From Halopelagius longus (GTDB lineage: Archaea; Halobacteriota; Halobacteria; Halobacteriales; Haloferacaceae): a DNA stretch of 64,000 bases. This document shows, in pieces, positions 9,138 through 42,126 of the stretch (the first letter of the stretch is position 1; each line of letters opens with the position of its first letter). Below the pieces are notes generated by a model. The model saw only the letters and a program-made list of their open reading frames with translations. It had not been told where the DNA came from and did no database searches. Position numbers and translations under genes: made by a program. The DNA lies in contig NZ_FNKQ01000005.1 of the NCBI RefSeq assembly GCF_900100875.1, forward strand, positions 1 through 64,000, written 5' to 3'.

Positions 9138-10192
9138 ACGGAAGCGAACTCGGCGAGACGACGGTCGGAACGGCGACGAACTCCGAGGCGAACGACTCGG
9201 AACGCCTCGCCATCGAAACCATCGGTCTGCGGAAGTCCTTCGGAGACGTCGTCGCCGTAGACGGCGTCGACTTGCGGATTCCGCGCGGTACCGTCTACGG
9301 CCTCCTCGGCCCGAACGGGGCCGGAAAGACCACGACGATCCGGCTGCTCACGACGCTGCTCCGCCCGGACTCGGGCACCGCGACCGTCCTCGGCCACGAC
9401 GTCGTGACCGAGGCGGCCGAGGTCCGATCGAAGGTGGCTCTCACGGGTCAGTACGCCTCGGTCGACGAGGACCTCACCGGTCGGGAGAACCTCGTCCTCG
9501 TGGCCCGACTTCTCGGACTCTCGTGGCGGGCCGCGCGGAGTCGGGCCGACGAACTGCTCACGACCTTCGGTCTCGCGGACGCCGCAGACCGTCAGGTGCG
9601 GACGTACTCCGGCGGCATGCGACGCCGTCTCGACGTCGCGGCGAGCCTCGTCGTCACGCCAGAGGTCCTGTTCTTGGACGAACCGACGACCGGTCTCGAC
9701 CCGCGGAGCCGGAATCAGGTCTGGGACATCGTGCGCGCCATCGCCGCCCACGGGACCACCGTACTCCTGACGACGCAGTACCTCGACGAGGCTGACCGAC
9801 TGGCCGACCGACTCGCCGTCGTCGACGAGGGGCGCGTCATCGCCGAGGGGACGAGTCGCGAACTGAAGGCGGCGGTGGGCGCGAACCGATTGGACGTTCG
9901 CCTCCGGGACGCCGGTCAGAGAATCGAGGCGGAGACCATCCTGACCGACGTCCTCGGCGTCGAACTCCTCGACGGAGCGGACCGGGACACGCTCTCTGTG
10001 AGCGTCCCGACCGAGGAGCGCGCCGCGGAAGCGCTGACCGCACTCGCCGACGCCGGCGTTCGCGCCGCCGAGTTCTCGCTCGGACAGGCGAGTCTCGACG
10101 AGGTGTTCTTGGCGCTCACCGGACGCCCCGCGCGAGAAGGGGGCGAACGCGGCGATGCGGCGGACGCCGAGGCGGCGGAGGTGCGGCCGTGA
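9134..10192 (+). CDS. ABC exporter ATP-binding protein, DrrA family
   Basis: Encodes 352 residues with Walker A GPNGAGKT at 59-66, the ABC signature [10 protein letters not shown] near residue 158, Walker [13 protein letters not shown] near 178 and the switch histidine region [14 protein letters not shown]. The C-terminal accessory domain (about residues 240-320) and the overall length match the daunorubicin-resistance DrrA group of ABC-2 type exporters. It would energise the membrane partner encoded at 10189, whose GTG overlaps this stop by four bases. The exported substrate cannot be deduced; lipids, drugs or surface compounds are all possible. Confidence 0.92.
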
Positions 10193-11028
10193 GCGCCGGG
10201 ACGGAGGACTCTCTGCTCCCCGCCGAGGACGGGTTCGACGGCGCCCTCTCGCGGAGCGAACGCCCGCCCCGCGCGGGGGCCGTCTCCGCGTCGCTCACCC
10301 TCGGGTGGCGTGCGCTCCTGAAAATCAAGCACGTCCCGTTCCAACTGTTCGACGTCACGGCGTTCCCCATCATGTTCACGCTGTCGTTTACCTACCTCTT
10401 CGGGGGCGCTCTGGCGGGGTCGCCGCAGGAGTACATCCAGTTCCTCCTGCCGGGAATCTTGGTGCAGACCATCGTCTTCATCACCGTCTACACGGGCTTC
10501 GGACTCAACACGGACCTCGACAACGGGCTCTTCGACCGCTTCCAGTCGCTCCCGATATGGCAACCCGCGCCCATCGTCGGCGCACTCTTGGGCGACGTCG
10601 TCCGGTACTGCATCGCCGCGTTCGTGGTGGTCGGACTCGGCGTCGCGCTCGGATTCCGCCCGGGGGCGGGCGTCCTCGGGATACTCCTCGGACTCGCGCT
10701 GGTGCTCGTCTTCGCGTTCAGCCTGTCGTGGATATGGATTCTCGTCGGGCTGTCGGTCGAGAAGCCGGAGTCGGTCATGACGATGAGCTTCGTGCTTCTG
10801 TTCCCGCTCACGTTCGTGAGCAACATCTTCGTCGACCCGGCGACGATGCCCCCGTGGCTTCAGACCGTCGTAGCCCTCAATCCCGTCACGCACCTCGTCG
10901 ACGCCACCCGGGGCTTCATGCACGGCGGCGTCGCGTTCGCGGACGTCGTGTGGGTCTTCGCCGCCTCTGCCATCATCGTCGCCGTGTTCGCGCCGCTCTC
11001 GATGCGGAAGTACCGGCAGGAGCGGTGA
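10189..11028 (+). CDS. ABC-2 type exporter permease, DrrB family
   Basis: Encodes 279 residues. After about 40 residues of cytoplasmic N-terminus there are six hydrophobic segments, starting [16 protein letters not shown] and [15 protein letters not shown], with the ABC-2 signature region around [14 protein letters not shown] and the closing [14 protein letters not shown] motif typical of DrrB and NodJ-type permeases. It forms the membrane channel for the ATPase encoded at 9134. The GTG start at 10189 gives a GTGA overlap with the upstream stop, so the two subunits are translationally coupled. Confidence 0.9.
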
Positions 11029-25601: not shown

Positions 25602-26399
25602 TCAGATATTCTCGAACGAATCTGTAGGGAGGGGAGACCGTCGATTCAGTAACTGCCGGTAGGTAACAGAGATGTCGTCCGCCGCCGCCTCTAACTTCCG
25701 GACGAGCGTTTCGCGGTACTCCTCACGCTGAAATTTACTGGTCGGGCCTCCGATCGAGATGCTCCCTACCGTCTCGTTATCGACGGTGAGTGGGCACGCG
25801 ACGAATCCGACTCCGACGGCCTGTTCGTCCCAATCGACGGCGTATCCGTCGTCCGCGATCCGGTCGAGTTCCCGCCGAAGCGTCGCGGGGTCAGTTGTCG
25901 TCTGTTCGGTTACTGCAGGAAGCGAATCTCCGTCCAGTAACTCGTTCCGGCGTTCCTCCGAGAACTCCGCCAGTATCACCTTCCCGGCGGCGTGGGTGTG
26001 AAGCGGCGTCCGAAAACCGCTGTACGGACTGGGGCCGACCCGCCCCCGGTCGGTTTCCGCGTGGAGAAGCACCCACTCTCCCTGTTCTTCGACGCCGAGT
26101 TGGACGAGTTCGCCCGTTTCTCTGTAGAGGTCTACCAGGGAGCGAATCGAAGCGCGAAACAACCGACCGCGGTACTTCTTTCGGTTCCCCAACTGCAGGA
26201 ACCGGTAGCCGAGTTCGTACAGTCCATCGTTCCGGGAGACGAATCCGACCTCCGCTAACGAGGCGAGGTAATCGTGCGCCGTCGCCCTCGTGACCCCGAG
26301 TTCGGCGGCGACTTCGGACGGACGCGCCCCCTCCTGTTCGTCGAGAACCTGCAGCACTCTAAACGCCCGCGCGACCGTTTTGAGAGGTGGGGAGCCCAT
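25602..26399 (-). CDS. IclR-family transcriptional regulator
   Basis: Encodes 265 residues. Residues 8-70 form the IclR winged helix (LKTVARAFRVLQVLDEQEGA, then the recognition helix VTRATAHDYLASLAEVGFV), and residues 85-250 the ligand-binding effector domain (GVEEQGEWVLLHAE, TPLHTHAAGKVILAE, CPLTVDNETVGSISIGGP). Haloarchaeal IclR proteins control sugar-acid and sugar catabolism. It stands at the left edge of the carbohydrate island, and a second IclR lies at 37640; which one senses rhamnose-derived metabolites is unknown. The ATG at 26399 follows an AT-rich promoter on this strand. Confidence 0.9.
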   Translation of the reverse strand: MGSPPLKTVARAFRVLQVLDEQEGARPSEVAAELGVTRATAHDYLASLAEVGFVSRNDGLYELGYRFLQLGNRKKYRGRLFRASIRSLVDLYRETGELVQLGVEEQGEWVLLHAETDRGRVGPSPYSGFRTPLHTHAAGKVILAEFSEERRNELLDGDSLPAVTEQTTTDPATLRRELDRIADDGYAVDWDEQAVGVGFVACPLTVDNETVGSISIGGPTSKFQREEYRETLVRKLEAAADDISVTYRQLLNRRSPLPTDSFENI

Positions 26400-27289: not shown

Positions 27290-29527
27290 CTATCGAGGCA
27301 ACTCCTCTACGAGTAGTTCGACCGGGTGACGTGGCTGTCGTTCGAGCAGGGCGCCTATCTGTTCGAGACAGGAGGTACCGCTGGCGACGACCCGTCGGTC
27401 GTCGACGCCGTCGGCCTCCAGTTGGCCCCTGAGTCGGTCGCCGACGTCCATGCTGAGTTCGTAGTACTCGGACTTGTAGCCGAAACTCCCCGCCATCCCG
27501 CAGCACTCCACGTCCGAGGTGACGACGTCGTAGCCGCACGCGTTCAGGACGGCGACGGTGTACGTCTCCAAGCCGAGGGTTCGCTGTTGACAGTGGCTGT
27601 GGTAGGCGATACCCTCGCCGTCGCCGGTGGCGAGTGCGTCGGCGTCGGCACCGTTCTCCAGGAGGCCGTAGACGTACTCCAGAACCTCGTAGCTGTTCTC
27701 AGAGAGTAGCGCGAAGGCGTCGCCGTCGACGAGTCGTTCGTACTCCCGCGTGAACATGGCGTGGTCGCTCGGTTCGACGACGACGACGTCGTAGCCGTCA
27801 TCGACGTACGGCGTGAGCGTCTCGGTGACGCGCTCTGCGTGGTCGGCCGCGGTATCGACCATCCCCTGCGAGAAGGGGGCGCGACCGCTGGAGGCCACCG
27901 ACGGAACGACCACCGCCACGCCGAGTGCTTCGAGGGCGCGGACGGCGGCCTTCCCGCGTTCGACCTGCACGTGGTTCGTGTAGAGGTCGGGGTAGAGGAC
28001 GGCGCGTCGTTCGGGACTCGTCGCGCGGGAGTCGCGCTCTGCTCGCGCCGCCCGCTCCTTCGAGGCGGCCGCGCCGCCTCGCTTCTCGAACCACTCGACC
28101 AACGTCTCCCGTTCGAACTCCGGCAGGTCGCGCCGGGGATCGATACCGAGCACCTTCTCCATCGCCCACCGGGACGCGTCGGTGTCGGCGAGCCAGTTCG
28201 AGAGCGGCGCCGTCGCGCTTCCGAGTTTCGCCACCGTCTCGAAGTTGCCGAAGAACCGCTTTTGGACGTCGACGCCGCCGGGTTCCTCGTCCGGCGTCAA
28301 CCCCTCGACCAACCAGTCGAACTCCGTCTCGTCTCCGCGGTTGATCCGGTCGCGAACGACCGTGTTTATCCACGGGATGTCTATCTTCACCGGGCAGGCG
28401 TTGACGCACCGCGTACAGCCGGTACAGAGGTCGTTGAACTCCGCGGCGGTGTCGGATCCCTCGATCCCCGCCTCCCATCCCGTCGCGATGCCGCCCGAGT
28501 AGGTTTCGCCGCCGAAGGCGTGCCCGCCGACGCTCTGGAAGTTCGCACAGGAGTTCGAACACGCCGAGCATCGAATGCAGTACAGCGTCTCCTCGAGGTG
28601 TTCGTCCTCGCGCATCTCCATGCGGCCGTTGTCGATGAGAACGAGGTGGAACTCCCGGTCGGCGTCGAACTCCGACAGCGGTGTGGTGTCGTCGTCGAAG
28701 TCGACGACCGGGGTGTCCACGGGCGGCGTGAGAAGCGAGACGTAGGAGGTGATGTCCTGTCCCGTCCCGGACCGACCGATGAGTTCGACGAACGGTTGGA
28801 GGTCCTCGACGGACGGAATCACCTTCTCGACACCCGCGACGGTTATCTGCGTGTCCGTCGCGGCGACGGTCTTTCGCGCGTTACCCTCACTCGTGACGAG
28901 TGCCATCGTCCCGGTGTCGGCGGTGATGAAGTTCGCGCCCGTCATCCCCACCTCCGCGTCGACTATCTGCTCGCCGAGTCTCTCTCGCGCGAAGTACGTG
29001 AGGTCTTCCGCGGTTTCGAGGGGTTCTTGGGGGTCGAACCGTTCGTCGAACAGGTCGGCGATGGCCTCCCTCGATTTGTGGATGGCCGGTGCGACGATGT
29101 GCGAGGGCGCTTCCTCCGCGAGTTGGAGCACCCACTCGCCGAGGTCGGTCTCCACCACGTCCACGCCGTCGGCTTCGAGCACGTCGTTGACCTCTATCTC
29201 CTCGGTGGTCATCGACTTCGACTTCACGACGCGGTCGGCGTCTCGGTCCGAGACGACCGAGCGGATGTAGTCGTTGGCGTCCTCGGCGTCGTCGGCGATG
29301 TACACCGTCCCGCCGTTGGCCTCGACGCTCTCCCGGAGTTCCTCGACGAGTTCCGGAAGGCGTTCGATGGCGTCCTCCTTGACGGCGCGGGCCTCGTCCT
29401 TCAGCGACTCGTAGTCTTCGAGGTCGGCGACCGACCGGTACCGACCCTCGTTGAACGCCCGCGTGTTCTCCGCCACCGCCGCGCCCTCGGTCCGCATCAG
29501 CCTGCGGATGTCGTCGGCCTTGGACAT
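27290..29527 (-). CDS. LutB/LutA-type fusion: LUD domain, two 4Fe-4S sites and cysteine-rich CCG domain
   Basis: Encodes 745 residues. The N-terminal 330 residues are a LUD (LutB) domain (KSKSMTTEEIEVN, GMTGANFITADTGTMAL). A ferredoxin module follows with two clusters (CIRCSACSNSC and CTGCTRCVNACP), then a LutA/GlpC-like CCG region in the last 250 residues. The second CCG motif is intact (ECCGMAGSFGYK), but at the first the expected CCG reads SSG (ASSGRAPFSQG). It should form an electron-transfer complex oxidising L-lactate to pyruvate with the LUD protein encoded two bases upstream. L-lactate is the expected end product of the rhamnose genes nearby. Glycolate or another hydroxy acid is an alternative. 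Confidence 0.86.
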   Translation of the reverse strand: MSKADDIRRLMRTEGAAVAENTRAFNEGRYRSVADLEDYESLKDEARAVKEDAIERLPELVEELRESVEANGGTVYIADDAEDANDYIRSVVSDRDADRVVKSKSMTTEEIEVNDVLEADGVDVVETDLGEWVLQLAEEAPSHIVAPAIHKSREAIADLFDERFDPQEPLETAEDLTYFARERLGEQIVDAEVGMTGANFITADTGTMALVTSEGNARKTVAATDTQITVAGVEKVIPSVEDLQPFVELIGRSGTGQDITSYVSLLTPPVDTPVVDFDDDTTPLSEFDADREFHLVLIDNGRMEMREDEHLEETLYCIRCSACSNSCANFQSVGGHAFGGETYSGGIATGWEAGIEGSDTAAEFNDLCTGCTRCVNACPVKIDIPWINTVVRDRINRGDETEFDWLVEGLTPDEEPGGVDVQKRFFGNFETVAKLGSATAPLSNWLADTDASRWAMEKVLGIDPRRDLPEFERETLVEWFEKRGGAAASKERAARAERDSRATSPERRAVLYPDLYTNHVQVERGKAAVRALEALGVAVVVPSVASSGRAPFSQGMVDTAADHAERVTETLTPYVDDGYDVVVVEPSDHAMFTREYERLVDGDAFALLSENSYEVLEYVYGLLENGADADALATGDGEGIAYHSHCQQRTLGLETYTVAVLNACGYDVVTSDVECCGMAGSFGYKSEYYELSMDVGDRLRGQLEADGVDDRRVVASGTSCLEQIGALLERQPRHPVELLVEELPR

Positions 29528-29529
29528 CG

Positions 29530-30054
29530 TCACTCGCCCCCCGTGAGAACGACGACGCGGACCTCCCGCGGTCCGTGCGCTCCCTTCACCAACGCCCCCA
29601 TGTCGGCCGTCGCGCTCGGTCCGGTCGCGAGGACGGCGCTTCCCTTCGTCCGACGGAACTCCGATCCGACCGACCGAATCGCCGACTCCATGTCTCGCTC
29701 GACGTCTCCCTCTCGGACGACGGCAACGTGACGGTCCACGAACAGACTCACGAGTTCGCTGGCGCGGTCGGTGACCGAGAGGACGAGCGACCCGTAGTCG
29801 GCGATTCCGAGGCTCGCCCCGGTCACACCTGTTTTCGCCGCTCGAAGCGTCGCGGGCGTCGGGTCGACTTCGACGGACGTCCCGGACAGGGCGAGTTCGG
29901 GGTCGTCGAACGTCTCCTCGAGGGCGACGCCGACGGCGGGTGAGTCGACGAGTTCGTCGACGCGGCTCCGGAACTCCGTTCCGTCGACGCGCGTTACGGA
30001 CACGCCCAACTCGTCCAGTACGGACTCGAACCGCGAGAGTGCGGATGACGACAT
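29530..30054 (-). CDS. LUD-domain protein, LutC-type
   Basis: Encodes 174 residues with the compact LUD fold: VGVALEETF, GVTGASLGIADYGSLVLSV, FVDRHVAVVREGDV and ATGPSATADMGALVKGAHGP, the end motif typical of LutC. It is the small partner of the LutB/LutA-type fusion encoded two bases downstream, forming an L-lactate utilisation unit on the minus strand. It diverges from the zinc alcohol dehydrogenase at 30242, so the spacer 30055-30241 holds both promoters, including TATTAG near 30178. Confidence 0.88.
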   Translation of the reverse strand: MSSSALSRFESVLDELGVSVTRVDGTEFRSRVDELVDSPAVGVALEETFDDPELALSGTSVEVDPTPATLRAAKTGVTGASLGIADYGSLVLSVTDRASELVSLFVDRHVAVVREGDVERDMESAIRSVGSEFRRTKGSAVLATGPSATADMGALVKGAHGPREVRVVVLTGGE

Positions 30055-30241: not shown

Positions 30242-31276
30242 ATGAAAGCAATCGTTCAGACCGGGCCTCGCTCCGTAGAGACGCAGGAGCGTCAAGCCCC
30301 CTCTCCAGACGCAGACGAAGTGCTCGTGAAAGTCCACACGGCCGGACTATGCGGGAGCGACGCTCACGCGTACAAGTACGACGGCGGATACGAGTGGATA
30401 CCCATCCCGCGCATCATGGGCCACGAGTACTCCGGTGAAGTCGTCGAGGTCGGTTCCGACGTGGAGGAGTTCGCGGAGGGCGACAAAGTCGTCGAGGAAC
30501 CGATTCACGACTGCGGCCACTGCTTCCAGTGTAAGAACGGACAGCCGAACGTCTGTCAGAACTTCTCCATCACCGGGATGCACCGGGACGGAGCGTACAC
30601 CGAGTACGTCGCCGTCGCGCCCGAACATCTCCACGCCGTCCCCGAGAGCGTTCCGCTCAGACACGCGGCCATCACGGAACCGACGAGCATCGCGGCGCGT
30701 GCGGTCCTCAGTCAGTCGAACGCGACGCCGGGAGACAACGTTCTCGTCGAAGGGCCGGGGCCGATAGGCGTCCTCGTCGCCGCCGTCGCGGACTCCCTCG
30801 GCGCGAACGTCGTCGTCTCCGGCCTCGAACAGGACACCAAGTACCGACTGCCGCTACTCGAAGATATGGGCATCGAGACGGTCAACGTCCAGTCGGACTC
30901 CGGAATCGACGACTACGTCGATTCGCTCACCGACGGCGTCGGGTTCGACGTGGTGTTCGACGCGACGGGTCACCACACCGGCGTCGGGACGGCGACCCAG
31001 CACACCCGGAAGGGCGGGCAGGTGGTCGTCGTGGGCATCCCCAACGACACCAGCGAAGTCAGCCTCACGCCGGTCGTCCGCGGCGAAATCGAGGTCAACA
31101 CCTCGTACGGGTCGACGTGGACGAACTTCGAACAGGCGCTCAGGCTGATGGAACGCGGCGACATCGCCGTCGACAAAATCCTCGACACGTCGTACGACAC
31201 CGACGACCCCGCGTCGGCGTTCGAGGCGTTCCTCAGTTCCGAGACCTGCAAGCCGGTGTTCCAGTTCGACCGCTGA
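30242..31276 (+). CDS. Zinc-dependent medium-chain alcohol/polyol dehydrogenase
   Basis: Encodes 344 residues of the MDR superfamily. Catalytic zinc ligands are Cys37 (GLCGSD), His61 and Glu62 (MGHEYSGEV); four structural zinc cysteines lie at 91, 94, 97 and 105 (CGHCFQCKNGQPNVC). The Rossmann motif is EGPGPIGVL. It resembles threonine- and sorbitol-dehydrogenase-like enzymes. Its place beside the rhamnonate dehydratase makes oxidation of 2-keto-3-deoxy-L-rhamnonate at C4, or of L-rhamnose or lactaldehyde, reasonable candidates; the sequence cannot choose. The frame opens at 30059, but the ATG at 30242 gives a standard MKAIVQTGP start. Confidence 0.9.
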   Translation: MKAIVQTGPRSVETQERQAPSPDADEVLVKVHTAGLCGSDAHAYKYDGGYEWIPIPRIMGHEYSGEVVEVGSDVEEFAEGDKVVEEPIHDCGHCFQCKNGQPNVCQNFSITGMHRDGAYTEYVAVAPEHLHAVPESVPLRHAAITEPTSIAARAVLSQSNATPGDNVLVEGPGPIGVLVAAVADSLGANVVVSGLEQDTKYRLPLLEDMGIETVNVQSDSGIDDYVDSLTDGVGFDVVFDATGHHTGVGTATQHTRKGGQVVVVGIPNDTSEVSLTPVVRGEIEVNTSYGSTWTNFEQALRLMERGDIAVDKILDTSYDTDDPASAFEAFLSSETCKPVFQFDR

Positions 31277-31401
31277 CCCACCGTCTCAGTCGTGCGCGCC
31301 GTCGGCCCCGAGTCGAGAGCGCACGCACTGCACCGCCCAGCGGAGTCTGCGATGGAAAATTCTTTAGGTTACCGCGTGGTGGTGCCGATACGAAACTACC
31401 G

Positions 31402-32607
31402 ATGGAGATTACAGACATTTCGGCGACGAAAGTGAGTACCGAGTCGTGGGGCGAGTTCGTCGAGTTCCCCCTCGTGACGGTCATGAGCAAGTACGACGAG
31501 TACAACAACGCCGACGGCGACAACCCGCAGGCCCGCCGCAAGTGGATGGGCCCCGTCGGCGACGTGGTGGTCGAAGTCGAGACTGACGCCGGCATCACGG
31601 GCGTCGGCCACGGCAACTGGGCGACCGGTGCCATCGCAACCATCGTCGAGGAGACGCTCTCGAAACTCGTCGTCGGCGAGGACCCCCGAGAACGGGAGAA
31701 GCTCTGGGACATGATGTACCGCGCGACCATCCCGTTCGGGCGGAAGGGCGCGGCCATCGAAGCCATCAGCGCCGTCGACCTCGCTCTGTGGGACATCGCC
31801 GGGAAAGAGGCCGACAAGCCCGTCTACGAACTCCTCGGCGGTCCCGTGCAGGACGAAATCCCCGCCTACGCGAGCAACCTCCACCCCGTCGACCTCGAAA
31901 CGCTGGAACGAGAGGCGCTCGAGTACGTCGAGCAGGGCTTCGACGCGATGAAACTCCGCTTCCAGTACGGTCCGGAGGCGGGACGGGCGGGTATGGAGAA
32001 GAACGAGGAGATCGTGAAGACGGTGCGGGACGCCGTCGGCCACGACATCAAGGTCGCCGGCGACGCGTACATGGGCTGGACCGTCCGCTACGCGAAGAAG
32101 ATGCTGAAGCGACTGGAGAAGTACGACATGGAGTGGGTCGAAGAGCCCGTCATCCCCGACGACTTAGACGGCTACGCCGAGGTCCGCGCGTCGACGGACG
32201 TGCCCATCTCCGGCGGCGAACACGAGTTCACCCGCTGGGGGTACAAGGAGATGCTGGAGAAGGAGACTGTCGACATCCTCCAACCCGACGTCCACCGCAT
32301 GGGCGGACTGACCGAACTGCTGCGGGTCGACGCGATGGCCAGTGCGCGCGACGTGCCCGTAATCCCGCACTCGGGGACGAACCCGCACCTGCACTTCATC
32401 GCCGCCTCCGCGAACTCCCCGATGGCGGAGTACTTCCCCATCCCCGAGTGGTACAAAGAACAGCAGGGCGACAAAGAGTCGACGTACGCCGACGCCATCT
32501 ACCAGCACCCGCCGAACGCGGAGGACGGCGTCATCCCCCTCCCGGACGGCGTCGGCCTGAGCGCCGAACTCAACCGCGAGGCGTTGGACCACTTCGCCGT
32601 GGAGTGA
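31402..32607 (+). CDS. Enolase-superfamily dehydratase, probable L-rhamnonate dehydratase
   Basis: Encodes 401 residues of the mandelate racemase/muconate lactonising family. Metal and catalytic residues can be placed: Lys in MKLRF (184), Asp221 (VAGDAYMGW), Glu247 (WVEEP), Glu273 in ISGGEHEFTRWG, and His323 in VIPHSGTNPHLHF. The GEHEFTRxG segment and the late SPMAEYFPIPE region are those of L-rhamnonate dehydratases, which convert L-rhamnonate to 2-keto-3-deoxy-L-rhamnonate. The nearby alpha-L-rhamnosidase supports that substrate over other sugar acids. An ATG at 31402 gives the standard MEITDISATKV start. The luciferase-like gene follows after two bases. Confidence 0.87.
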   Translation: MEITDISATKVSTESWGEFVEFPLVTVMSKYDEYNNADGDNPQARRKWMGPVGDVVVEVETDAGITGVGHGNWATGAIATIVEETLSKLVVGEDPREREKLWDMMYRATIPFGRKGAAIEAISAVDLALWDIAGKEADKPVYELLGGPVQDEIPAYASNLHPVDLETLEREALEYVEQGFDAMKLRFQYGPEAGRAGMEKNEEIVKTVRDAVGHDIKVAGDAYMGWTVRYAKKMLKRLEKYDMEWVEEPVIPDDLDGYAEVRASTDVPISGGEHEFTRWGYKEMLEKETVDILQPDVHRMGGLTELLRVDAMASARDVPVIPHSGTNPHLHFIAASANSPMAEYFPIPEWYKEQQGDKESTYADAIYQHPPNAEDGVIPLPDGVGLSAELNREALDHFAVE

Positions 32608-32609
32608 CC

Positions 32610-33638
32610 ATGCCGGACATCAGCTTCGAGTACAACGTGCCGGTGTTCGCGGGCGCGCCGGAGTCGGGCACCGACCCCGTCCACCGGGACACGCCGTCCT
32701 ACGAGTCCCTCGATTGGGAGACGACGAAGATGGGCGTCGAGACGGCGGAGGAACTCGGCTTCGACGCGGTGTGGGCGCCGGACCACCTGATGCTCGGCCG
32801 CGACCACGCCGAGTACGAGTGTTGGACGCTGTTGAGCGCGATTGCGGGATTCACCGACGACGTCAACGTGGGGTCGCTGGTGCTCTGTAACGACTACCGC
32901 AACCCCGCCTTGGTGGCGAAGATGGCCGCCACGCTCGACGTCATCTCCGAGGGCCGACTCGAACTCGGACTCGGTGCGGGGTGGCACGAACCCGAGTACG
33001 ACGCCTACGGCTGGGAGTACCGCGACGGGTTCGAGCGCTTGATGCGGTTAGACGAGTCCATCCGTCTGATGAAGCGGATGTGGGAGGCCGGGAGCGACGG
33101 CGCGAGTTTCGACGGCGAGCGCTACCAAATCGACGACGCGTACTGCTCGCCGCCGCCGGTACAGGACCCCCACCCGCCCATACTCGTCGGCGGACAGGGC
33201 GAGGAGGTGACGCTGAAGTTGGTCGCAAAGCACGCCGACGTGTGGAACACGGACGTGTTCAACGGCGACGTGGAGACGTTAGAGCACAAGATTAGCGTCA
33301 TCGAGGACCACTGCGAGACGGTCGGCAGGGACCCCGACGAGATAGAGTACTCTTGGGACGGACACGTCATCTGCACCCGCGACGAGGAGAAACTCGACCG
33401 GATGCTCGACCTGATGCTCCCCATCCAGTTCGAAGAGGAGTATCAGGACCAAGCGAACATCGAGACGGAGGAAGACGCCCGGGAGTTCTTCGTCATGGGG
33501 ACGCCCGAGGAGTGCGCCGAAGCCATCGAGAGGCGCATCGACGCGGGCGTGACGAAGTTCCAAGGGTGGTTCATCGATTTCCCCGACACCGAGGGGATGG
33601 AACTGTTCGCCGACGAAGTGATTCCGCAGTTCGCCTGA
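32610..33638 (+). CDS. Luciferase-like (LLM) flavin/F420-dependent oxidoreductase
   Basis: Encodes 342 residues with the bacterial luciferase-like TIM barrel: VETAEELGFDAVWAPDHL, then NVGSLVLCNDYRNPALVAK, ISEGRLELGLGAGWHEPEY, PPILVGGQGEEVTLKLVA and the closing GTPEECAEAIERRIDAG. Haloarchaea make coenzyme F420, so an F420- or FMN-dependent hydride transfer or monooxygenation is expected. It sits two bases after the rhamnonate dehydratase and is surely co-transcribed, implying an oxidoreductive step on a sugar-acid intermediate. No signal peptide; cytoplasmic. Confidence 0.88.
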   Translation: MPDISFEYNVPVFAGAPESGTDPVHRDTPSYESLDWETTKMGVETAEELGFDAVWAPDHLMLGRDHAEYECWTLLSAIAGFTDDVNVGSLVLCNDYRNPALVAKMAATLDVISEGRLELGLGAGWHEPEYDAYGWEYRDGFERLMRLDESIRLMKRMWEAGSDGASFDGERYQIDDAYCSPPPVQDPHPPILVGGQGEEVTLKLVAKHADVWNTDVFNGDVETLEHKISVIEDHCETVGRDPDEIEYSWDGHVICTRDEEKLDRMLDLMLPIQFEEEYQDQANIETEEDAREFFVMGTPEECAEAIERRIDAGVTKFQGWFIDFPDTEGMELFADEVIPQFA

Positions 33639-34077: not shown

Positions 34078-37000
34078 ATGTCAACGTCTGCCGACCAGGA
34101 GAGGCTCCACCGACCGACAGACTTGCGCGTCGAGTTCGAGGCCGCGCCCGAGAACGTCGACCCGACCGAGTCGCCGCGGTTCTCGTGGCGCCTCGCGACC
34201 GACGACCGGGGCGCCACGCAACGAGCCTACCGACTCGTCGTCGGCCGGGACCGCGACGCCGTCGCCGCCGGTCGCGGAACGCTCTGGGACTCCGGCCGCG
34301 TCGAGTCGGGGCGCGCGACCAACGTCGACTACGACGGTCCGACCCTCGGCGCCGACGAGACCTACTACTGGTCGGTGAAGGTGTGGACCGCCGACCGCGA
34401 GACGGAGTGGGCCGAACCGGCGCGGTTCGCGACGGCGTTGGACCCCGAGAGTTGGCGGGGCGAGTGGATCGCCCACCAACCCGGCGAAGGCGACACGAAC
34501 GGCTGGCGGAGCCAGTGGCGCAGTCCGGACGAGAACGGCGACGAGTGGGTGGAGGTTGACTTGGGCGAGTCCCGCGATATCTCCGCTATTTCCCTCTACG
34601 GGACCGAACCCGTCGACATCGTCAGGACGCCGGACGACACCGCGGTTACGATCTCGTGGTCGGAGAACCCCATCGAGGGGTTCGGATTCCCCGACGCTTA
34701 CCGAGTCGAGGTGGCCGACGACCCCGACTTCGGCGACGCGACGGTCGTCGCAGAAGTCGAGTTCGAAGACGACGACACGGAGGAGGAACCGGAGGGCGTC
34801 CCCGACGAGAGCGTTCCCGTCGAGACCCACGACGGCCTCGACGTCAGCGGTCGATACGTCCGGGTCACGGCGACCGACCTCTTCGAGGTCACCCCCTCGA
34901 CGTGGGACACGTCTCACATCCGCAGCGACGACCGGCGCGTCGTGGCGGCCAGCGCGTGGGAGTGCTTCGCGCTCGCCGCCCTCTCAGTGGAAGGTCCCGA
35001 CGGAGCCGAACTCGCGACCGACAGCTTCGTCGAGGCGTCCTCGTCGTTCGAAACCGACACGTGGGGCCGCGACCACTTGGTGAACGGACGGACGGAGTCA
35101 CAGACCGGCTCCACGTCGCCGCTCCTCCGGACGGAGTTCGACCTCGACAAACCCGTCCGTTCGGCGCGGATGCACGTCGCCGCCGTCGGCTACGGCGAAC
35201 TGCACGTCAACGGCGACCGGGTCGGCGACCGAAAACTCGACCCGGCGTGGACGGACTACGAACAGCGCGTCCTCTACACGAGTCACGACCTCACCGACCG
35301 ACTCCGCGAGGGTTCGAACGCCGTCGGCCTCTGGCTCGGTCGCGGGTGGTTCGCAAAGAGCAGTTCCTACTGGGTCAACGACGGTTCACCGCGCGCCCGC
35401 GCGGTACTCACAGTGGAGTTCGAAGACGGGACGACGCGGCGTATCGCGACCAACGCGGACTGGAAGGCGGCGGACAGCCCGATTCTCGCGAACGACATCT
35501 ACGACGGCGAGACGTACGACGCCCGACGGGAGGAGGACGGCTGGCGTACCCCCGAGTACGACGCGTCGTCGTGGGAGAACGCGACCGTCGTCGATGCCCC
35601 CGGCGGGACGCTTCGCCCGGAACGCATCGAACCGATGCGGGTCGTCGACACCTTCGACGTCGAGGCGGTCCACGACCGTCCGGAGGGTCCGATTCTCGAC
35701 TTCGGCCAGAATCTCACCGGGTGGGTGGAACTGCGTATCGACGACCCCGACGCGGGCGACGAGGTGACCGTCCGCCACGCGGAGGCACTCACCGAGGACG
35801 GCGACCTCTCTACGACCGACCTCCGGACGGCCGACGCGACGGACACGTACGTCGCCCGCGGCGAGGCGACGGAGACGTACGAACCGCGCTTCACGTACCA
35901 CGGCTTCCGGTACGCGCAGGTGACGGGCTACCCCGGCGAGTTCGACCCGGAGGCGGTGACCGCGAAGGCCGTTCACACGGCGATGGACCGACGGGGGGAG
36001 TTCGCCTGCTCGAACGAGGAACTGAACCAACTCCAGCACAACGCCGTCTGGGGGCTCCGCAGCAACACGCACTCGATTCCGGAGGACTGCCCCCAACGCG
36101 ACGAGCGCTTCGGGTGGACGGGAGACGCCCACATCTCCACCCGGTCGCTGCTCTTCAACTTCGACGCCGTCCGCTTCGACGAGAAGTGGGCCCGCGACCA
36201 CGACGACGTCGCCACGGAGATGGGCTACGTCCCCGACGTCATCCCCAACAAGGCCGTCGAGGACCCCGCGGACCCCACGTGGTCCATCACGCGCGTGGTG
36301 GTCCCGTGGTACCTCTACCTGCACGACGGCGACGAGGGAATCCTCCGCGAGCAGTACGAGGGGATGCGCGAGTACGTCGATTACTGGTACGAGAACACCG
36401 AGGACGGCATCCTCCCCGACGACTACGGGAAGTTCGGCGACTGGCTGGCCTTCGAGAACACCGACGGGCGCCGCGGACTGCCTCACCACCTGTACAACAC
36501 CGCCTTCCTCTATCAGGTCGTGGACACCTTCGCCAAGGTCGCCCGTGTGCTCGGTAACGAGACGGACGCCGAGAGCTACCGCGAACGCGCCGAGCACGTC
36601 GCAGACGCCTTCAACGACCGCTACTTCGACCCCGAATCGGGGACGTACGGTCCGGGGACCCAGTCCTCGTACGCCGTCCCGTTGTTCCTCGGGATGGTGC
36701 CCGACGACCACGTCGACCGCGTCGCCGAGAACCTCGCCGAGAAGGTTCGCTCCGACGGCGGGAAGCTCAGAACCGGCTTCCTCGGGACGCGACCGCTGAT
36801 ACACACGCTGGCGACCCACGGCTACGCCGACCTGGCGTATCGGGTCGTCAGCCAACCCGAACAGCCCGGGTGGGTGTACATGGTCCGCAACGACGCGACG
36901 ACGATGTGGGAGCGGTGGAACTCTGACGAGAGCGTCGGGTCCGGCATGAACTCGCTGAACCACTCGCCGTTCACGCACGTCTCGGAGTTCTTCTACGAGG

Positions 37001-37347
37001 TGCTCGCCGGGATTCGACTCGGCGACCGGCCGATCACCGACCACGTGACTATCGCGCCGTCGATGGTCGAGGACCTCGATTGGGTGTCGGCGAGCGTCGA
37101 GGCGCAAACCGGCGAACTGTCGGTCGATTGGGAGCGCGACGGCGAAGGCGAGTACGAACTGTCGGTGACCGTCCCGTGGAACGGCCGAGCGACGGTCCGA
37201 CTCCCCGACGCGGCCGAGAGCACGGTGACCGAATCGGACGTCCGACTGTCCGAGGGCGCGCCCGACGGCATCCTCTCGGTCGAACGCGACGGCGACGACG
37301 TCGTCGTCGAAGTCGGCGCGGGGGAGTACGGGTTCGTCGTCGAATAA
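34078..37347 (+). CDS. Alpha-L-rhamnosidase, glycoside hydrolase family 78
   Basis: Encodes 1089 residues. N-terminal beta domains (HRPTDLRVEFEAAPENVD; YYWSVKVWTAD) are typical of bacterial-type GH78 enzymes; residues about 150-330 hold an inserted sandwich (WVEVDLGESRDISAISLYGT) resembling an F5/8 carbohydrate-binding fold. The catalytic (alpha/alpha)6 barrel carries EDCPQRDERFGWTGDAH with the probable acid Glu676, and TMWERW with the probable base Glu945, then the C-terminal sandwich. There is no signal peptide, so rhamnose would be released inside the cell from imported rhamnosides. A TTACCTTATCATA promoter element precedes the ATG by about 25 bases. Confidence 0.93.
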   Translation: MSTSADQERLHRPTDLRVEFEAAPENVDPTESPRFSWRLATDDRGATQRAYRLVVGRDRDAVAAGRGTLWDSGRVESGRATNVDYDGPTLGADETYYWSVKVWTADRETEWAEPARFATALDPESWRGEWIAHQPGEGDTNGWRSQWRSPDENGDEWVEVDLGESRDISAISLYGTEPVDIVRTPDDTAVTISWSENPIEGFGFPDAYRVEVADDPDFGDATVVAEVEFEDDDTEEEPEGVPDESVPVETHDGLDVSGRYVRVTATDLFEVTPSTWDTSHIRSDDRRVVAASAWECFALAALSVEGPDGAELATDSFVEASSSFETDTWGRDHLVNGRTESQTGSTSPLLRTEFDLDKPVRSARMHVAAVGYGELHVNGDRVGDRKLDPAWTDYEQRVLYTSHDLTDRLREGSNAVGLWLGRGWFAKSSSYWVNDGSPRARAVLTVEFEDGTTRRIATNADWKAADSPILANDIYDGETYDARREEDGWRTPEYDASSWENATVVDAPGGTLRPERIEPMRVVDTFDVEAVHDRPEGPILDFGQNLTGWVELRIDDPDAGDEVTVRHAEALTEDGDLSTTDLRTADATDTYVARGEATETYEPRFTYHGFRYAQVTGYPGEFDPEAVTAKAVHTAMDRRGEFACSNEELNQLQHNAVWGLRSNTHSIPEDCPQRDERFGWTGDAHISTRSLLFNFDAVRFDEKWARDHDDVATEMGYVPDVIPNKAVEDPADPTWSITRVVVPWYLYLHDGDEGILREQYEGMREYVDYWYENTEDGILPDDYGKFGDWLAFENTDGRRGLPHHLYNTAFLYQVVDTFAKVARVLGNETDAESYRERAEHVADAFNDRYFDPESGTYGPGTQSSYAVPLFLGMVPDDHVDRVAENLAEKVRSDGGKLRTGFLGTRPLIHTLATHGYADLAYRVVSQPEQPGWVYMVRNDATTMWERWNSDESVGSGMNSLNHSPFTHVSEFFYEVLAGIRLGDRPITDHVTIAPSMVEDLDWVSASVEAQTGELSVDWERDGEGEYELSVTVPWNGRATVRLPDAAESTVTESDVRLSEGAPDGILSVERDGDDVVVEVGAGEYGFVVE

Positions 37348-37639: not shown

Positions 37640-38398
37640 ATGAGTGACACGGCGCCGATTAAGGCTGTGAAGATCGCCTTCGAGATAATCGACCTCCTCC
37701 GGGAACTCGACGGGGCGGGCGTCTCGGAGGTGGCCCAGCGGTTGGAGAAACCGACGAGTACCGTCCACGACCACCTCCGGACGCTCGAAGGCGAGGGATA
37801 CCTCGTCAAGGAGGGCAGTACGTACCACGTGAGCACTCGGTTCCTCCAACTCGGCGACCAAGCGCGGTCCAGAAAGAAGGTGTTCAACGTTGCCCGCCCC
37901 GAGATAGACGACCTCGCGCAGGCGACCGGCGAGCACGCGAATCTCATGATCGAGGAACACGGGCTCGGCGTCTTTCTGTACCGCTCTCGGGGACAAGACG
38001 CCGTCCAGTTGGACACCCACGACGGGATGCGCGTCCCCCTGCAGACGACTGCGCTCGGAAAGACCATCATGGCCCATCGGCCGCGCGAGGAGGTCGAAGC
38101 CATACTGGACCGACACGGCCTCCCGGAGGTGACGTCCAGTACCATCTCGGACCGAGCGGAGCTTTTCGACACCCTCGAACAAGTACGAGAGCGAGGGTAC
38201 GCCTACGACGACGAGGAACGCGTCAAGGGGATGCGGTGCGTCGCAGCGCCGATACTGGACGAGGAGGACTACGCTATCGCGGCCGTGAGCGTCTCCGGCC
38301 CGAAGAGCCGAATGCGAAAGGAGCGGTTCACGACAGAGGTCCCCGAGCAGATTCTCCGGAGTGCGAACGTCATCGAGGTGAACCTCACGTACTCCTGA
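37640..38398 (+). CDS. IclR-family transcriptional regulator
   Basis: Encodes 252 residues. Winged helix: VKIAFEIIDLLRELDGAG, then VAQRLEKPTSTVHDHLRTLE; effector domain from about residue 80 (GEHANLMIEEHGLGVFLY, VPLQTTALGKTIMAHRP, APILDEEDYAIAAVSVSGP). It differs in sequence from the IclR at 25602. It lies between the rhamnosidase and the FAH hydrolase, so it is the likelier direct regulator of the rhamnose genes, responding to a sugar-acid intermediate; that is inference from place. A GACTATAACC promoter element precedes the ATG at 37640. Confidence 0.9.
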   Translation: MSDTAPIKAVKIAFEIIDLLRELDGAGVSEVAQRLEKPTSTVHDHLRTLEGEGYLVKEGSTYHVSTRFLQLGDQARSRKKVFNVARPEIDDLAQATGEHANLMIEEHGLGVFLYRSRGQDAVQLDTHDGMRVPLQTTALGKTIMAHRPREEVEAILDRHGLPEVTSSTISDRAELFDTLEQVRERGYAYDDEERVKGMRCVAAPILDEEDYAIAAVSVSGPKSRMRKERFTTEVPEQILRSANVIEVNLTYS

Positions 38399-38448
38399 CT
38401 CCCGCCGAAGCACAACAATTAGGTACCGTCCCCCGTCACTGACAGTCG

Positions 38449-39297
38449 ATGCAGCTCGTTCGATACACGACCGGCGGAGCCCCCCAGTGGGGAGTTCGCC
38501 GCGACGACGAGGTAGTACCGCTGACCGGCCTCCGCGAAGACGTCTCCTACCAGCAGTTGACCAGCCCCGGCTTCCTCCGCGTCGTCGAAGACGCCGTGGA
38601 CGCCGCCGAGGACAGGGCGATTCCGGAGTCGGAGGCGAAACTGCTCGCGCCCGTCCCCCGTCCGGGGAAGATAGTCTGCGTCGGGCTCAACTACCACGAC
38701 CACGCGGAGGAACAGGACAAAGAGGTCCCGGAGCGACCGCTCCTGTTCGGGAAGGCGGGCGCGGCGGTCACCAACCCCGGCGACCCCATCGTCCACCCCG
38801 ACGCCGTCGAACAGGTGGACTACGAGGTGGAACTCGGCGTCGTCATCGGGAAGACGGCGAAGAAGGTGTCCGCCGACGAGGCACTGGAGTACGTCGCCGG
38901 CTACACGGCGGTAAACGACGTCAGCGCGCGCGACGCCCAGTTCGAGGACGAGCAGTTCTTCCGCGGGAAGAGCTACGACACGTTCGCCCCGATGGGGCCG
39001 ACGCTCGTTCCCCAACGCGACCTGAACCCGAACGAGTTGGACGTCGCCTGCCGCGTCAACGGCGAGACGAAGCAGGAGTCGTCCACCGAGGAGTTCATCT
39101 TCGACGTCGAGGAACTCGTCGAGTACATCAGCGGAATCACCACCCTCCGACCGGGCGACGTCATCTCGACGGGGACGCCGGGCGGCGTCGGTATCTTCCG
39201 CGACCCGCCGGAACTCCTCGAACCCGGCGACACCGTCGACGTCGAAATCGAGGGCATCGGAACGCTGACGAACTCCGTCGCCGCGGAGCAGCGGTAG
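38449..39297 (+). CDS. FAH-family hydrolase, probable 2,4-diketo-3-deoxy-L-rhamnonate hydrolase
   Basis: Encodes 282 residues of the fumarylacetoacetate hydrolase family. Conserved blocks: KIVCVGLNYHDHAEE, VDYEVELGVVIGKTAKKVS with metal-binding acids, NDVSARDAQ, KSYDTFAPMGPTLV and STGTPGGVGIFRDPP. Family members cleave C-C bonds of diketo acids or act on keto acids. In the diketo-hydrolase rhamnose pathway such an enzyme splits 2,4-diketo-3-deoxy-L-rhamnonate to pyruvate and L-lactate, which fits the rhamnosidase, dehydratase and lactate-oxidising genes nearby. Acylpyruvase or another keto-acid role cannot be excluded. Confidence 0.86.
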   Translation: MQLVRYTTGGAPQWGVRRDDEVVPLTGLREDVSYQQLTSPGFLRVVEDAVDAAEDRAIPESEAKLLAPVPRPGKIVCVGLNYHDHAEEQDKEVPERPLLFGKAGAAVTNPGDPIVHPDAVEQVDYEVELGVVIGKTAKKVSADEALEYVAGYTAVNDVSARDAQFEDEQFFRGKSYDTFAPMGPTLVPQRDLNPNELDVACRVNGETKQESSTEEFIFDVEELVEYISGITTLRPGDVISTGTPGGVGIFRDPPELLEPGDTVDVEIEGIGTLTNSVAAEQR

Positions 39298-39366
39298 CCC
39301 GCGGTTCGCGGCCGGCGGGCGGCCGTTCATGCATCTATTTGTGGGAGAGGTCGCTACCGTTCGTCC

Positions 39367-40164
39367 ATGACGACGCAGTCAGACGACCGTTTAGCGGGAC
39401 AGCACATCGTCGTTACCGGCGGTGCGCGGGGAATCGGCCGAGGTATCGCCGTCAGATGTGCGCGGGCGGGTGCCGACGTCTCTCTCTTCGATACGAAACC
39501 GGACGTCGCCGCCGAGACTGCGGCGCAGGTTCGTCAAACGGGGAACGAAGCGGCGGTGTACGACGTCGACGTGACGGACCGCTCGTCCGTCGAAACCGCC
39601 GTCGAAGCGGCGTCGAACGAACTCGGACGGATAACCGGACTGGTGAACAACGCGGGTGTCCAGCAGGCGGTTCCCCTGTTGGAGACGACGGAGGAGGCGT
39701 GGGACGCCCACTTCGACGTGAACGCCAAGGGAACGTTTCTCGTCTCGAAGACCGTCGCGCGAGCGATGGTCGAGGCGGACACCGCCGGGAGCATCGTAAA
39801 CGTCTCCTCGGTGGGCGCGGAGCGACCGTTCGAGGGTCAGGGAGCGTACGGTGCCTCGAAGGCGGCGGTCCTCGCGTTCACCACCGTCCTCGCGAAGGAA
39901 CTGAGCGACCACGGAATCACGGTCAACGCCATCAAGCCCGGAACCGTCGAGACGCCGATGGTGGAGGAGTGGCTCGCGGAGCACGCCGACCAGTCGGCGA
40001 AGTCGCCCGACGAGGTTCTCTCGGAGGCGCTCGACGACCACATCCTCGACCGAATCGGGCAACCCGAGGAAGTCGGTCACGTCGCCGTCCTTCTGCTCTC
40101 CGAGGAGGGCGACTGGATTACGGGGGAGTCCATCGCCGTCGACGGGGGCTACCTCAAAGGCTAA
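39367..40164 (+). CDS. Short-chain dehydrogenase/reductase, candidate L-rhamnose pathway dehydrogenase
   Basis: Encodes 265 residues, a classical SDR. TGGARGIGRG binds the cofactor, NNAG stabilises the central sheet, NVSSVG carries the catalytic serine and YGASKAAV the Tyr/Lys pair. An aspartate after the second strand (FDTKPD) favours NAD over NADP. SDRs act in the rhamnose pathway both as L-rhamnose 1-dehydrogenase and as 2-keto-3-deoxy-L-rhamnonate dehydrogenase; position just after the FAH hydrolase supports one of these. Which step it performs is not determinable here. Confidence 0.9.
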   Translation: MTTQSDDRLAGQHIVVTGGARGIGRGIAVRCARAGADVSLFDTKPDVAAETAAQVRQTGNEAAVYDVDVTDRSSVETAVEAASNELGRITGLVNNAGVQQAVPLLETTEEAWDAHFDVNAKGTFLVSKTVARAMVEADTAGSIVNVSSVGAERPFEGQGAYGASKAAVLAFTTVLAKELSDHGITVNAIKPGTVETPMVEEWLAEHADQSAKSPDEVLSEALDDHILDRIGQPEEVGHVAVLLLSEEGDWITGESIAVDGGYLKG

Positions 40165-40294: not shown

Positions 40295-41263
40295 CTACTC
40301 GTCTCCTGAAGGCGTTACCGTGTGACTGAGCGTTCCGATTCCGTCGACCTCCAGTTCGATCGTATCGCCGGGTTCGATCCATCGGTCGAGGTCCAGACAG
40401 CACCCGCCGGGGACCGTTCCGCAACCGAGGATATCTCCCGGGTGCAGCGTTTCGTCTCTCGATGCGTACTCGATCATCTCCCCCCACGAGTGGTACATCT
40501 CAGAGAGACTCCCGGACATCCACCGGTCGCCGTTGACTCGCGCTCGGACCGCCGCACCGTCCGCCTCGAACGCGTCGGACGTGACGAGATACGGGCCGAA
40601 TCCGTTGGCGAAGTCCTTCCCTTTCGCCGGTCCGAGCGGCATCTCCATCTCTCGGAACTGCGTGTCCCGCGCGGTGAAATCGTTGAAAATCGTGAAGCCG
40701 GCGACGTGGTCCATGGCGTCCTCGGCGTCGATGTTCTCGCCGGGCGACCCGATGATCGCCGCGACTTCGAGCTCGAAGTCGAGCTTGTTCTCCCACGCGG
40801 GCCACGGTACGTCGGCGCCCGGACGGACGACGCTATCCGGATTCCCCTTGTAGTAGACGGGGATGTCGTACCATACGTCGGGCTTCTCGACGTGGTCGGC
40901 GTGCCCCTCGAAGACGGAGAAGTCCCGAATCGAGTTCGGCCGCGGAAGCGGACTGAGCAGTCGCACCTCGTCTTCGTCGTACCTGACCCGCGCTCCGTCG
41001 GGCGCCCGAACGTCGTCCCCTCGGGGGATATCCGCGTCGAGAACGGTTCGCGCGGCGTCGATAGCGTCGTCTCCCACCCGAAGGAGTTCGAGGGCGTCGG
41101 GCGGCACGATACTCCTCGCACGTTCGGTCGGTTTCGGGGTCCCCTCGGCGTCGAGGACGTACGAATAGCCGGCCGTAACGTCCAGCAACGACGCCTCGTC
41201 TACCACGCCGACGCGTCGGAACCGACCGACATCGGTCTCTACCTCGAAGGTTGCGAGTTTCAT
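40295..41263 (-). CDS. FAH-family hydrolase (fumarylacetoacetase-like), second copy type
   Basis: Encodes 322 residues, longer than and distinct from the FAH protein at 38449. It has an N-terminal domain of about 100 residues, then PLPRPNSIRDFSVFEGH, YYKGNPDSVVRPG, NKLDFELEVAAIIGSPGENI with metal-binding acids, NDFTARDTQF, and ILGCGTVPGGCC. That layout is shared with fumarylacetoacetases and 2-keto-acid hydrolases of aromatic or sugar-acid breakdown. Its ATG overlaps the cyclase stop by four bases (ATGA at 41260-41263), so the two act in one pathway. The substrate is unknown. Confidence 0.87.
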   Translation of the reverse strand: MKLATFEVETDVGRFRRVGVVDEASLLDVTAGYSYVLDAEGTPKPTERARSIVPPDALELLRVGDDAIDAARTVLDADIPRGDDVRAPDGARVRYDEDEVRLLSPLPRPNSIRDFSVFEGHADHVEKPDVWYDIPVYYKGNPDSVVRPGADVPWPAWENKLDFELEVAAIIGSPGENIDAEDAMDHVAGFTIFNDFTARDTQFREMEMPLGPAKGKDFANGFGPYLVTSDAFEADGAAVRARVNGDRWMSGSLSEMYHSWGEMIEYASRDETLHPGDILGCGTVPGGCCLDLDRWIEPGDTIELEVDGIGTLSHTVTPSGDE

Positions 41264-42066
41264 GGTTCCTCGATGACGGCGATCGGTCGAACCCATCCGC
41301 CGCTTCCGTTCTCGATGGACACCGGAATCGCGAGAAGCGGTATCTCGGTGCGTCGCGGGAGGGCGTCGAGGTTCGCCATCTTCTCGATCTGACAGTACTC
41401 CACCTCACGGCCCGCGAAGTGGGCCGGCCACAGTTCGTCGCTGTCCCCCGTCTCCTCGAATCGACGCCCCATCTCGACGAACGGCTTGTCGAACCCGTAG
41501 GCGTCGGTTCCGACCACTTTCACTCCCTGCTCGACGAGGAACTTCGTGCCCTCGGCGCTCATGCCGGGATACTCGGTGAGGTACTCGTGCGTCCCCCACA
41601 ATTCGTCTGCTCCCGTCTGTACGAGCACGATTTCGCCGGCCGAAAGCTCGTGGTCGAGTTCCTCGAGTTGAACTTCGATCTCTTCGGCGCTGATCTCGCT
41701 CCGCGGTTCCTTCCACGTGAAATCGAGGACGACGGCGTTCCCGATCCCCCACGACAACGGCACCTCGTCGATGGTCTTGGCGGGGTCGCCGTCTACCTCC
41801 GGGCCGTAGTGCCACGGTGCGTCCATGTGAGTCGCCGTGTGCGGCGTCGCGGTGAGAAACTCCGCCGCCAACCCGAGTCCGCCGGGGAAGTCTTCGGCGT
41901 CCACGTCGAACCCCTGCTGTCGAAGGGTGGCTGCGAGCGTTTCTGCGCCGTCTTCGTGGTCTTCGTAGTTTATCTCCGGCGGCCACGGTTCGCTCTCGAC
42001 GTCCGCTTCGATGGAGATGCTGAGGTCGAGTATCCGCGCATCTCCGCTTGCCAGTTGACTCCACAT
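41260..42066 (-). CDS. Cyclase-family (kynurenine formamidase-like) metal-dependent hydrolase
   Basis: Encodes 268 residues of the cyclase family. The metal-binding motif appears as ATPHTATHMDAPWHY (HxxTHxDxPxH), followed by VLDFTWKEPR and VLVQTGADELWG. Members hydrolyse formamides or lactone-like ring bonds in aromatic amino-acid and polyketide metabolism. Start: ATG at 42066, about 30 bases after an ACTATAT box on this strand; the frame opens further up at 42120. Coupled by a four-base overlap to the FAH hydrolase downstream, and preceded by the truncated amidohydrolase, it belongs to a partly decayed catabolic operon. Confidence 0.85.
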   Translation of the reverse strand: MWSQLASGDARILDLSISIEADVESEPWPPEINYEDHEDGAETLAATLRQQGFDVDAEDFPGGLGLAAEFLTATPHTATHMDAPWHYGPEVDGDPAKTIDEVPLSWGIGNAVVLDFTWKEPRSEISAEEIEVQLEELDHELSAGEIVLVQTGADELWGTHEYLTEYPGMSAEGTKFLVEQGVKVVGTDAYGFDKPFVEMGRRFEETGDSDELWPAHFAGREVEYCQIEKMANLDALPRRTEIPLLAIPVSIENGSGGWVRPIAVIEEP

Positions 42067-42126
42067 GTCATTTGGTAAACACCGCGGACGCATATAGTTA
42101 TTATTCTCCTCTCGGCGCATCGGGCG

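Follow-up and report, generated by a model that had tools for sequence, protein, structure and literature searches.

The window, by which we mean the whole 64,000-nucleotide stretch of Halopelagius longus DNA that was analysed, contains a cluster of putative genes for L-rhamnose, a plant sugar, centred on two neighbours, one encoding an RhcD-type L-rhamnonate dehydratase and the other a luciferase-like (LLM) oxidoreductase. We assigned the following features, from left to right:

25602-26399, minus strand: second IclR-family regulator (Pfam)
27290-29527, minus strand: large LUD-domain Fe-S protein, candidate for L-lactate oxidation (Pfam LUD_dom)
29530-30054, minus strand: small LUD-domain protein (54% to the small LUD protein of the related locus L007)
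30242-31276, plus strand: RhcE-type MDR dehydrogenase (Pfam ADH_N and ADH_zinc_N on a longer open reading frame)
31355-31401, plus strand: putative A+T-rich, promoter-like stretch 5' of rhcD (reading of the sequence)
31402-32607, plus strand: RhcD-type L-rhamnonate dehydratase of the enolase superfamily, 401 amino acids (Pfam; orthologues annotated rhcD)
32610-33638, plus strand: LLM oxidoreductase, 342 amino acids, proposed F420-dependent L-rhamnose 1-dehydrogenase (Pfam Bac_luciferase; adjacency)
34078-37347, plus strand: GH78 alpha-L-rhamnosidase, 1089 amino acids (Pfam Bac_rhamnosid domains)
37640-38398, plus strand: IclR-family regulator (Pfam IclR_C and HTH_IclR)
38449-39297, plus strand: FAH-family hydrolase, candidate 2,4-diketo-3-deoxy-L-rhamnonate hydrolase (78% to the L007 cluster protein)
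39367-40164, plus strand: SDR dehydrogenase, alternative candidate L-rhamnose dehydrogenase (Pfam; found in 12 of 31 genomes that bear the gene pair)

Within this cluster, the large LUD protein scores 434.1 bits against NCBIfam LdhH, below the cut-off of 800, and a minus-strand open reading frame that overlaps the FAH-family gene (38419-39330) has no family match. The lactonase orthologue of this genome lies outside the cluster (G000:C1:20466-21317, 63%). Beside the SDR gene, the minus strand carries another FAH-family gene, which overlaps a putative cyclase gene by 37 nt (40295-42120).

As the sequence-only reading had stated, the LLM gene starts two bases past the dehydratase stop, on the same strand, and the window sequence has no space for a promoter between the two genes. 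By this anatomy the pair looks like one unit, again in line with that reading, and it is conserved far outside the window. The dehydratase itself contains the Pfam domains MR_MLE_N and MR_MLE_C. Its best NCBIfam match is the bacterial L-rhamnonate dehydratase equivalog NF011968, whose cut-off of 393 bits it does not reach (257.9 bits). It is 73-77% identical to plasmid orthologues annotated as rhcD, L-rhamnonate dehydratase, which form one subgroup; plasmid orthologues closer to it, in its own subgroup, are annotated 'enolase C-terminal domain-like protein' or are unannotated. Residues D221, E247, E273 and H323, which we take to be catalytic, are invariant across 28 aligned sequences. Orthology to annotated rhcD, together with these intact residues, marks the first gene as a predicted haloarchaeal rhcD. 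The RhcD proteins of the window and of loci L007-L041 fall into two clades (linked at at least 81%) and one outlier, L038. Clade membership does not follow genus, yet the neighbouring LLM remains similar (77% for RhcD and 90% for LLM between the window and Halogeometricum pallidum, L025), so RhcD looks to have been replaced within the operon.

To define how far the two genes travel together, we used a class sample of 242 haloarchaeal genomes, the window's own included. RhcD matched at E 1e-80 in 28 of them, 27 at at least 74% identity and one (G032) at 46%; LLM matched at E 1e-60 in 43, of which 27 were at at least 81% and 16 had matches of at most 51% only. The 27 genomes with RhcD are the same 27 genomes that have LLM, and their coordinates place the two genes next to each other on one strand in every case; G032 has no LLM of at least 81%. 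Identical sets of 27 among 242 genomes, with the genes adjacent, argue that the pairing is not due to chance. Among 15 Haloferax genomes, eight carry both genes and seven carry neither, six of the eight being also in the class sample. The sequence-only reading had proposed looking for the same pair in other Halobacteria, and there it was.

At the level of loci, RhcD lies directly 5' of LLM in 30 of the 31 loci of our named collection. The exception is a second locus in Halocatena marina DFN5 (L039), an orphan LLM copy (about 9998-10930) with an interrupted frame and no RhcD adjoining it. In all 33 loci with RhcD (30 named plus three annotated plasmid loci), the LLM start lies between -4 and +10 nt from the RhcD stop. 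Gene clustering of 35 loci, in which L019, L034 and L039 had no predicted genes and were judged by tblastn only, recovered RhcD and LLM in 33 each, MDR in 24, IclR in 23, the hydrolase in 23, the mutarotase in 22, the lactonase in 18 and SDR in 11, and so tied LLM most tightly to RhcD. We are highly confident that LLM and RhcD are constant partners in the L-rhamnose pathway of haloarchaea.

Several of these loci have further neighbours of their own. In seven (L021, L027, L028, L030, L032, L033 and L041) the pair is accompanied, in varying combinations, by a peptide-type ABC transporter and genes of pectin type (GH28, oligogalacturonate lyase, GH88); L021, L028, L032, L033 and L041 encode another LLM besides, about 30% identical. 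On pHTUR01 of Haloterrigena turkmenica, a mycofactocin biosynthesis cluster (L008 23293-28098) lies about 7 kb downstream of the pair.

To ask which pathway step LLM might serve, we profiled the enzymes of 31 pair-bearing genomes (30 named and the window's own), a set in which LLM is universal by construction. An orthologue of RhcE, the MDR dehydrogenase, is present in 31 of 31 at at least 67% identity, within the cluster or elsewhere, and the lactonase in 31 of 31 at at least 57%. The hydrolase is found in 30 of 31 at E 1e-60, with G259 and G276 matching at only 53-54% over part of the protein; in the remaining genome, G262, locus L026 contains a 51% match. Since RhcE is present throughout, sugar-acid oxidation already has its own enzyme. 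The sequence-only reading had suggested that LLM replaces the NAD-linked oxidation of 2-keto-3-deoxy-L-rhamnonate, and it is true that LLM adjoins the dehydratase that makes this compound and that an MDR gene is missing within 10 kb at some loci. The universal MDR orthologue nevertheless makes the idea very improbable, and we dropped LLM as a replacement for RhcE.

The SDR behaves differently from these enzymes. It is found in 12 of the 31 genomes at E 1e-70, seven Haloferax and the window's own included (the G261 match covers residues 1-207 only). Among the 19 others, 18 show no SDR match even at E 1e-48, and G255 alone gives a signal at that threshold (a 47% match and a 71% fragment). Judged by gene content, it is the first step, from L-rhamnose to its lactone, that has no universal enzyme, and how haloarchaea carry out this step is unsettled in the 19 pair-bearing genomes that have no SDR. 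Two SDR-less linked clusters are instructive here: L071/L036 has the mutarotase, lactonase, RhcD, LLM, LUD, FAH and IclR genes, and L072/L021 also keeps the mutarotase, lactonase, RhcD and LLM. As far as our queries reached, LLM is the oxidoreductase left in both without an assigned step.

The distribution of the SDR is also the strongest objection to LLM as the step-1 enzyme, as LLM is not obviously needed for that step in the 12 genomes that have both. There, the SDR may be either an added isoenzyme or the real step-1 enzyme, with LLM acting otherwise on the same sugar. Extended to all genomes, the argument would make the SDR the true L-rhamnose dehydrogenase, with a different NAD(P) enzyme in that role in genomes that lack it, and LLM would have an auxiliary function in the pathway: it might oxidise the other anomer or ring form, or a related 6-deoxy sugar, or remove a by-product of RhcD. 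In the window and in Haloferax the SDR gene is indeed part of the cluster, and the L-rhamnose 1-dehydrogenase of the bacterium Azotobacter belongs to the SDR type (PMC9795676). The association of LLM is with RhcD rather than with the lactonase, which we counted against a step-1 role and in favour of an auxiliary one.

Other dehydrogenase genes also occur near several SDR-less clusters, and one of them could serve step 1 there. By tblastn, 9 of 19 fetched SDR-less regions contain SDR-, ALDH- or Gfo/Idh-like matches, among them a weak (29%) Gfo/Idh match near the lactonase in the Natronoglomus region L077, and the other ten have no SDR, Gfo/Idh, AKR or ALDH match. This negative is incomplete, because Pfam on a few open reading frames identified, in L029, a Gfo/Idh gene at a distance of 8 kb from the pair, and the genome of this locus is one of those ten. 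Against the SDR as the universal enzyme stands its absence from 19 of 31 genomes, including Natronoglomus mannanivorans AArc-m2/3/4 (L033), which is SDR-less by genome search and is reported as a rhamnose user (PMC10963439). The best solved relatives of the SDR are moreover SDRs of the acetoin-reductase and other types; the best 60 of 120 include no L-rhamnose dehydrogenase. Taken together, we regard a general SDR-type step 1 with an auxiliary LLM as rather unlikely.

We then considered what the LLM protein itself may use as cofactor. It belongs to Bac_luciferase (PF00296; 185.1 bits against a gathering threshold of 27.9, E 2.7e-54, residues 29-315), and its best curated model is TIGR03560 (F420_Rv1855c), at 228.1 bits, 3 below the cut-off of 231.4. 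Its orthologues straddle this cut-off, with L036 (228.2) and L007 (230.6) under it and L013 (237.3) and L019 (233.4) over it. The four best curated models are all F420 families (228, 179, 163 and 148 bits), and the best FMN model, SfnG, reaches 105 bits. The cut-offs of the FGD family models are missed (84.5 against 210.4 for TIGR03557 and 57.2 against 420 for TIGR03554). F420, one of two cofactors put forward by the sequence-only reading, is thus favoured by the closest curated models, and the F420 biosynthesis gene cofD is over cut-off in 31 of 31 pair-bearing genomes. A cofH gene (over the NF005609 cut-off) lies 7.6 kb from the pair in Halocatena pleomorpha (L036 18652-20016). We set it aside as a lead to F420, because cofH matches occur only in the two stretches of that genome (L036 and L071) among the loci examined, and treated its position as chance. 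Bacterial LLM relatives in Tsukamurella and Streptomyces (37%) have unrelated gene contexts.

Structure comparison was less selective. An AlphaFold2 model built from 30 sequences had a mean pLDDT of 82.5, with residues 14-25 and 62-68, which lie beside the active site, below 50. Foldseek ranked FMN-type monooxygenases at the top, listing 3rao, SfnG and MsuD first, and VIA-align placed Mer first (Z 33.6, 299 residues, 2.0 Å), ahead of SfnG (33.1) and Adf (32.5), so that FMN enzymes come within 1 Z of the F420-dependent Mer. We therefore rejected the fold as a basis for choosing the cofactor, as the model matches F420 and FMN enzymes about equally.

The active site gives a mixed picture. His59 is invariant in alignments of 30 and 21 rows and aligns with the His of the DH motif in Adf, fHMAD and Mer, and 3rao and 8vw6 have no His there. 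In the structure alignment, the active-site Glu of Adf and fHMAD corresponds to Trp125 of LLM, and their Trp to Leu62/Gly63. The catalytic residues of FGD1 are His40, Trp44 and Glu109. As the Glu and Trp of the Adf/fHMAD site are not conserved, the chemistry of LLM cannot equal unchanged FGD chemistry, and we did not place LLM in the FGD/FSD/Adf group of F420 dehydrogenases. F420 is more likely than FMN to be the cofactor.

The same data bear on two other roles for LLM. It could be an FMNH2-dependent monooxygenase of a substituted or 6-deoxy sugar or sugar acid, like sulfoquinovose monooxygenase, as FMN monooxygenases (3rao, SfnG, MsuD and sulfoquinovose monooxygenase 7oh2, Z 29.7) match the modelled fold as closely as F420 enzymes do. 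We consider this distinctly unlikely: the best curated family is an F420 family more than 100 bits above the best FMN model, the recurring neighbour families that could be identified (some could not) include no flavin reductase, and the described rhamnose route needs no oxygenation. Alternatively, LLM could run in reverse as an F420H2-dependent reductase, for example of lactaldehyde or a keto-acid side product, given that F420-dependent LLM families include reductases such as Mer (PMC6279831). With no aldolase among the identified neighbour families and no clear need for a reduction in the catabolic route, this role seems most improbable.

The window's genome also encodes a 48% paralogue of LLM, LLM2 (L045 7967-8965), inside a likely L-fucose cluster (L045 56-9399; G000:C4, about 12.0-21.4 kb). 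The genes of this locus include an enolase-superfamily gene, Gfo/Idh, an amidohydrolase, a ribose-type ABC transporter, an alpha-L-fucosidase, LLM2 and a RhaM-family mutarotase; the amidohydrolase (2034-2960, Pfam Amidohydro_2) is 32% identical to the lactonase of the L007 rhamnose cluster. We compared nine LLM2 loci (L007, L009, L045 and L047-L052, with L064 duplicating L051). Five of the nine have a RhaM mutarotase, four an SMP-30 lactonase, two a GH29 fucosidase and four an Amidohydro_2 amidohydrolase, and neither mutarotase nor lactonase was seen in four (L049-L052). LLM and LLM2 share an N-terminal HRD[TA]P motif and the motif G....E[YF]E.WTLL, which more distant paralogues do not have. 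With the queries used, neither RhcD nor a mutarotase or lactonase was matched near the LLM paralogues of about 40% (L046, L053-L062), and the annotation of a further paralogue locus, L065, includes none of these either. The occurrence of both LLM and LLM2 with mutarotases and lactonases would fit an aldose 1-dehydrogenase.

The reading that we favour, tentatively, is that LLM is an F420-dependent L-rhamnose 1-dehydrogenase, where substrate, cofactor and direction are all things we infer. LLM would abstract hydride from C1 of the sugar ring and so convert L-rhamnose and F420 to L-rhamnono-lactone and F420H2. The following steps would be those of the described route, carried over by orthology: the lactonase would open the lactone to L-rhamnonate, RhcD would dehydrate L-rhamnonate, RhcE would oxidise the product, the FAH-family hydrolase would cleave to pyruvate and L-lactate, and the LUD proteins would oxidise the lactate. 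LLM2 would perform the same first step for L-fucose in the second cluster. With a little more reserve, we suggest that haloarchaea may possess an F420-dependent dehydrogenase family that acts on unphosphorylated 6-deoxyhexoses, with an L-rhamnose member paired with RhcD and an L-fucose paralogue.

Haloarchaea make the rare cofactor F420, and its role in them has been called undetermined (PMC8498797) and enigmatic (PMC8305020); the authors of the latter knew of only one reported F420-dependent reaction. If the proposal is true, a 6-deoxyhexose dehydrogenase family would assign F420 to a specific catabolic task in Halobacteria, and non-phosphorylative sugar breakdown would turn out to have an entry step that uses a deazaflavin. 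The occurrence of LLM next to rhcD in 27 of 27 RhcD-bearing genomes (242 sampled) makes the haloarchaeal role of F420 experimentally tractable, in a pathway already worked on in Haloferax.

The closest known system is the L-rhamnose (rhc) pathway of Haloferax volcanii, reportedly described by Reinhardt et al. in 2019, in work that may already assign step 1 in Haloferax. The window cluster resembles it in its RhcD- and RhcE-type enzymes (names from plasmid annotation) and IclR regulator; the CUT1 ABC transporter of rhc-type loci is present in the related locus L007 but not in the window cluster. LUD-type lactate oxidation, predicted for the window cluster, is a further point of resemblance (PMC8305020, PMC11519228). 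The difference is LLM, since no LLM member is named where the accessible excerpts of those two papers describe the pathway. In the same way, the literature excerpts returned by our search contained no link of LLM or F420 to archaeal rhamnose breakdown, which agrees with the remark of the sequence-only reading that the described archaeal pathway has no known LLM enzyme.

Among F420 systems, the TIGR03560 (Rv1855c type) family is the best curated match, and the orthologues L013 and L019 pass its cut-off. The window LLM differs in falling 3 bits under, and the two bacterial relatives examined sit in unrelated contexts. F420 use of this family is itself a prediction. Adf (1rhc), an F420-dependent secondary alcohol dehydrogenase, is similar over 304 residues at 2.6 Å and has the DH motif conserved, but is described for linear alcohols, not sugars (PMC6279831). 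FGD and FSD, the F420-dependent glucose-6-phosphate and sugar-6-phosphate dehydrogenases, are only 19-23% identical to the window LLM in structure alignments, and the proposed LLM substrate, unlike theirs, is unphosphorylated. They nevertheless share the LLM fold, and FGD oxidises a sugar ring to a lactone (PMC12750041).
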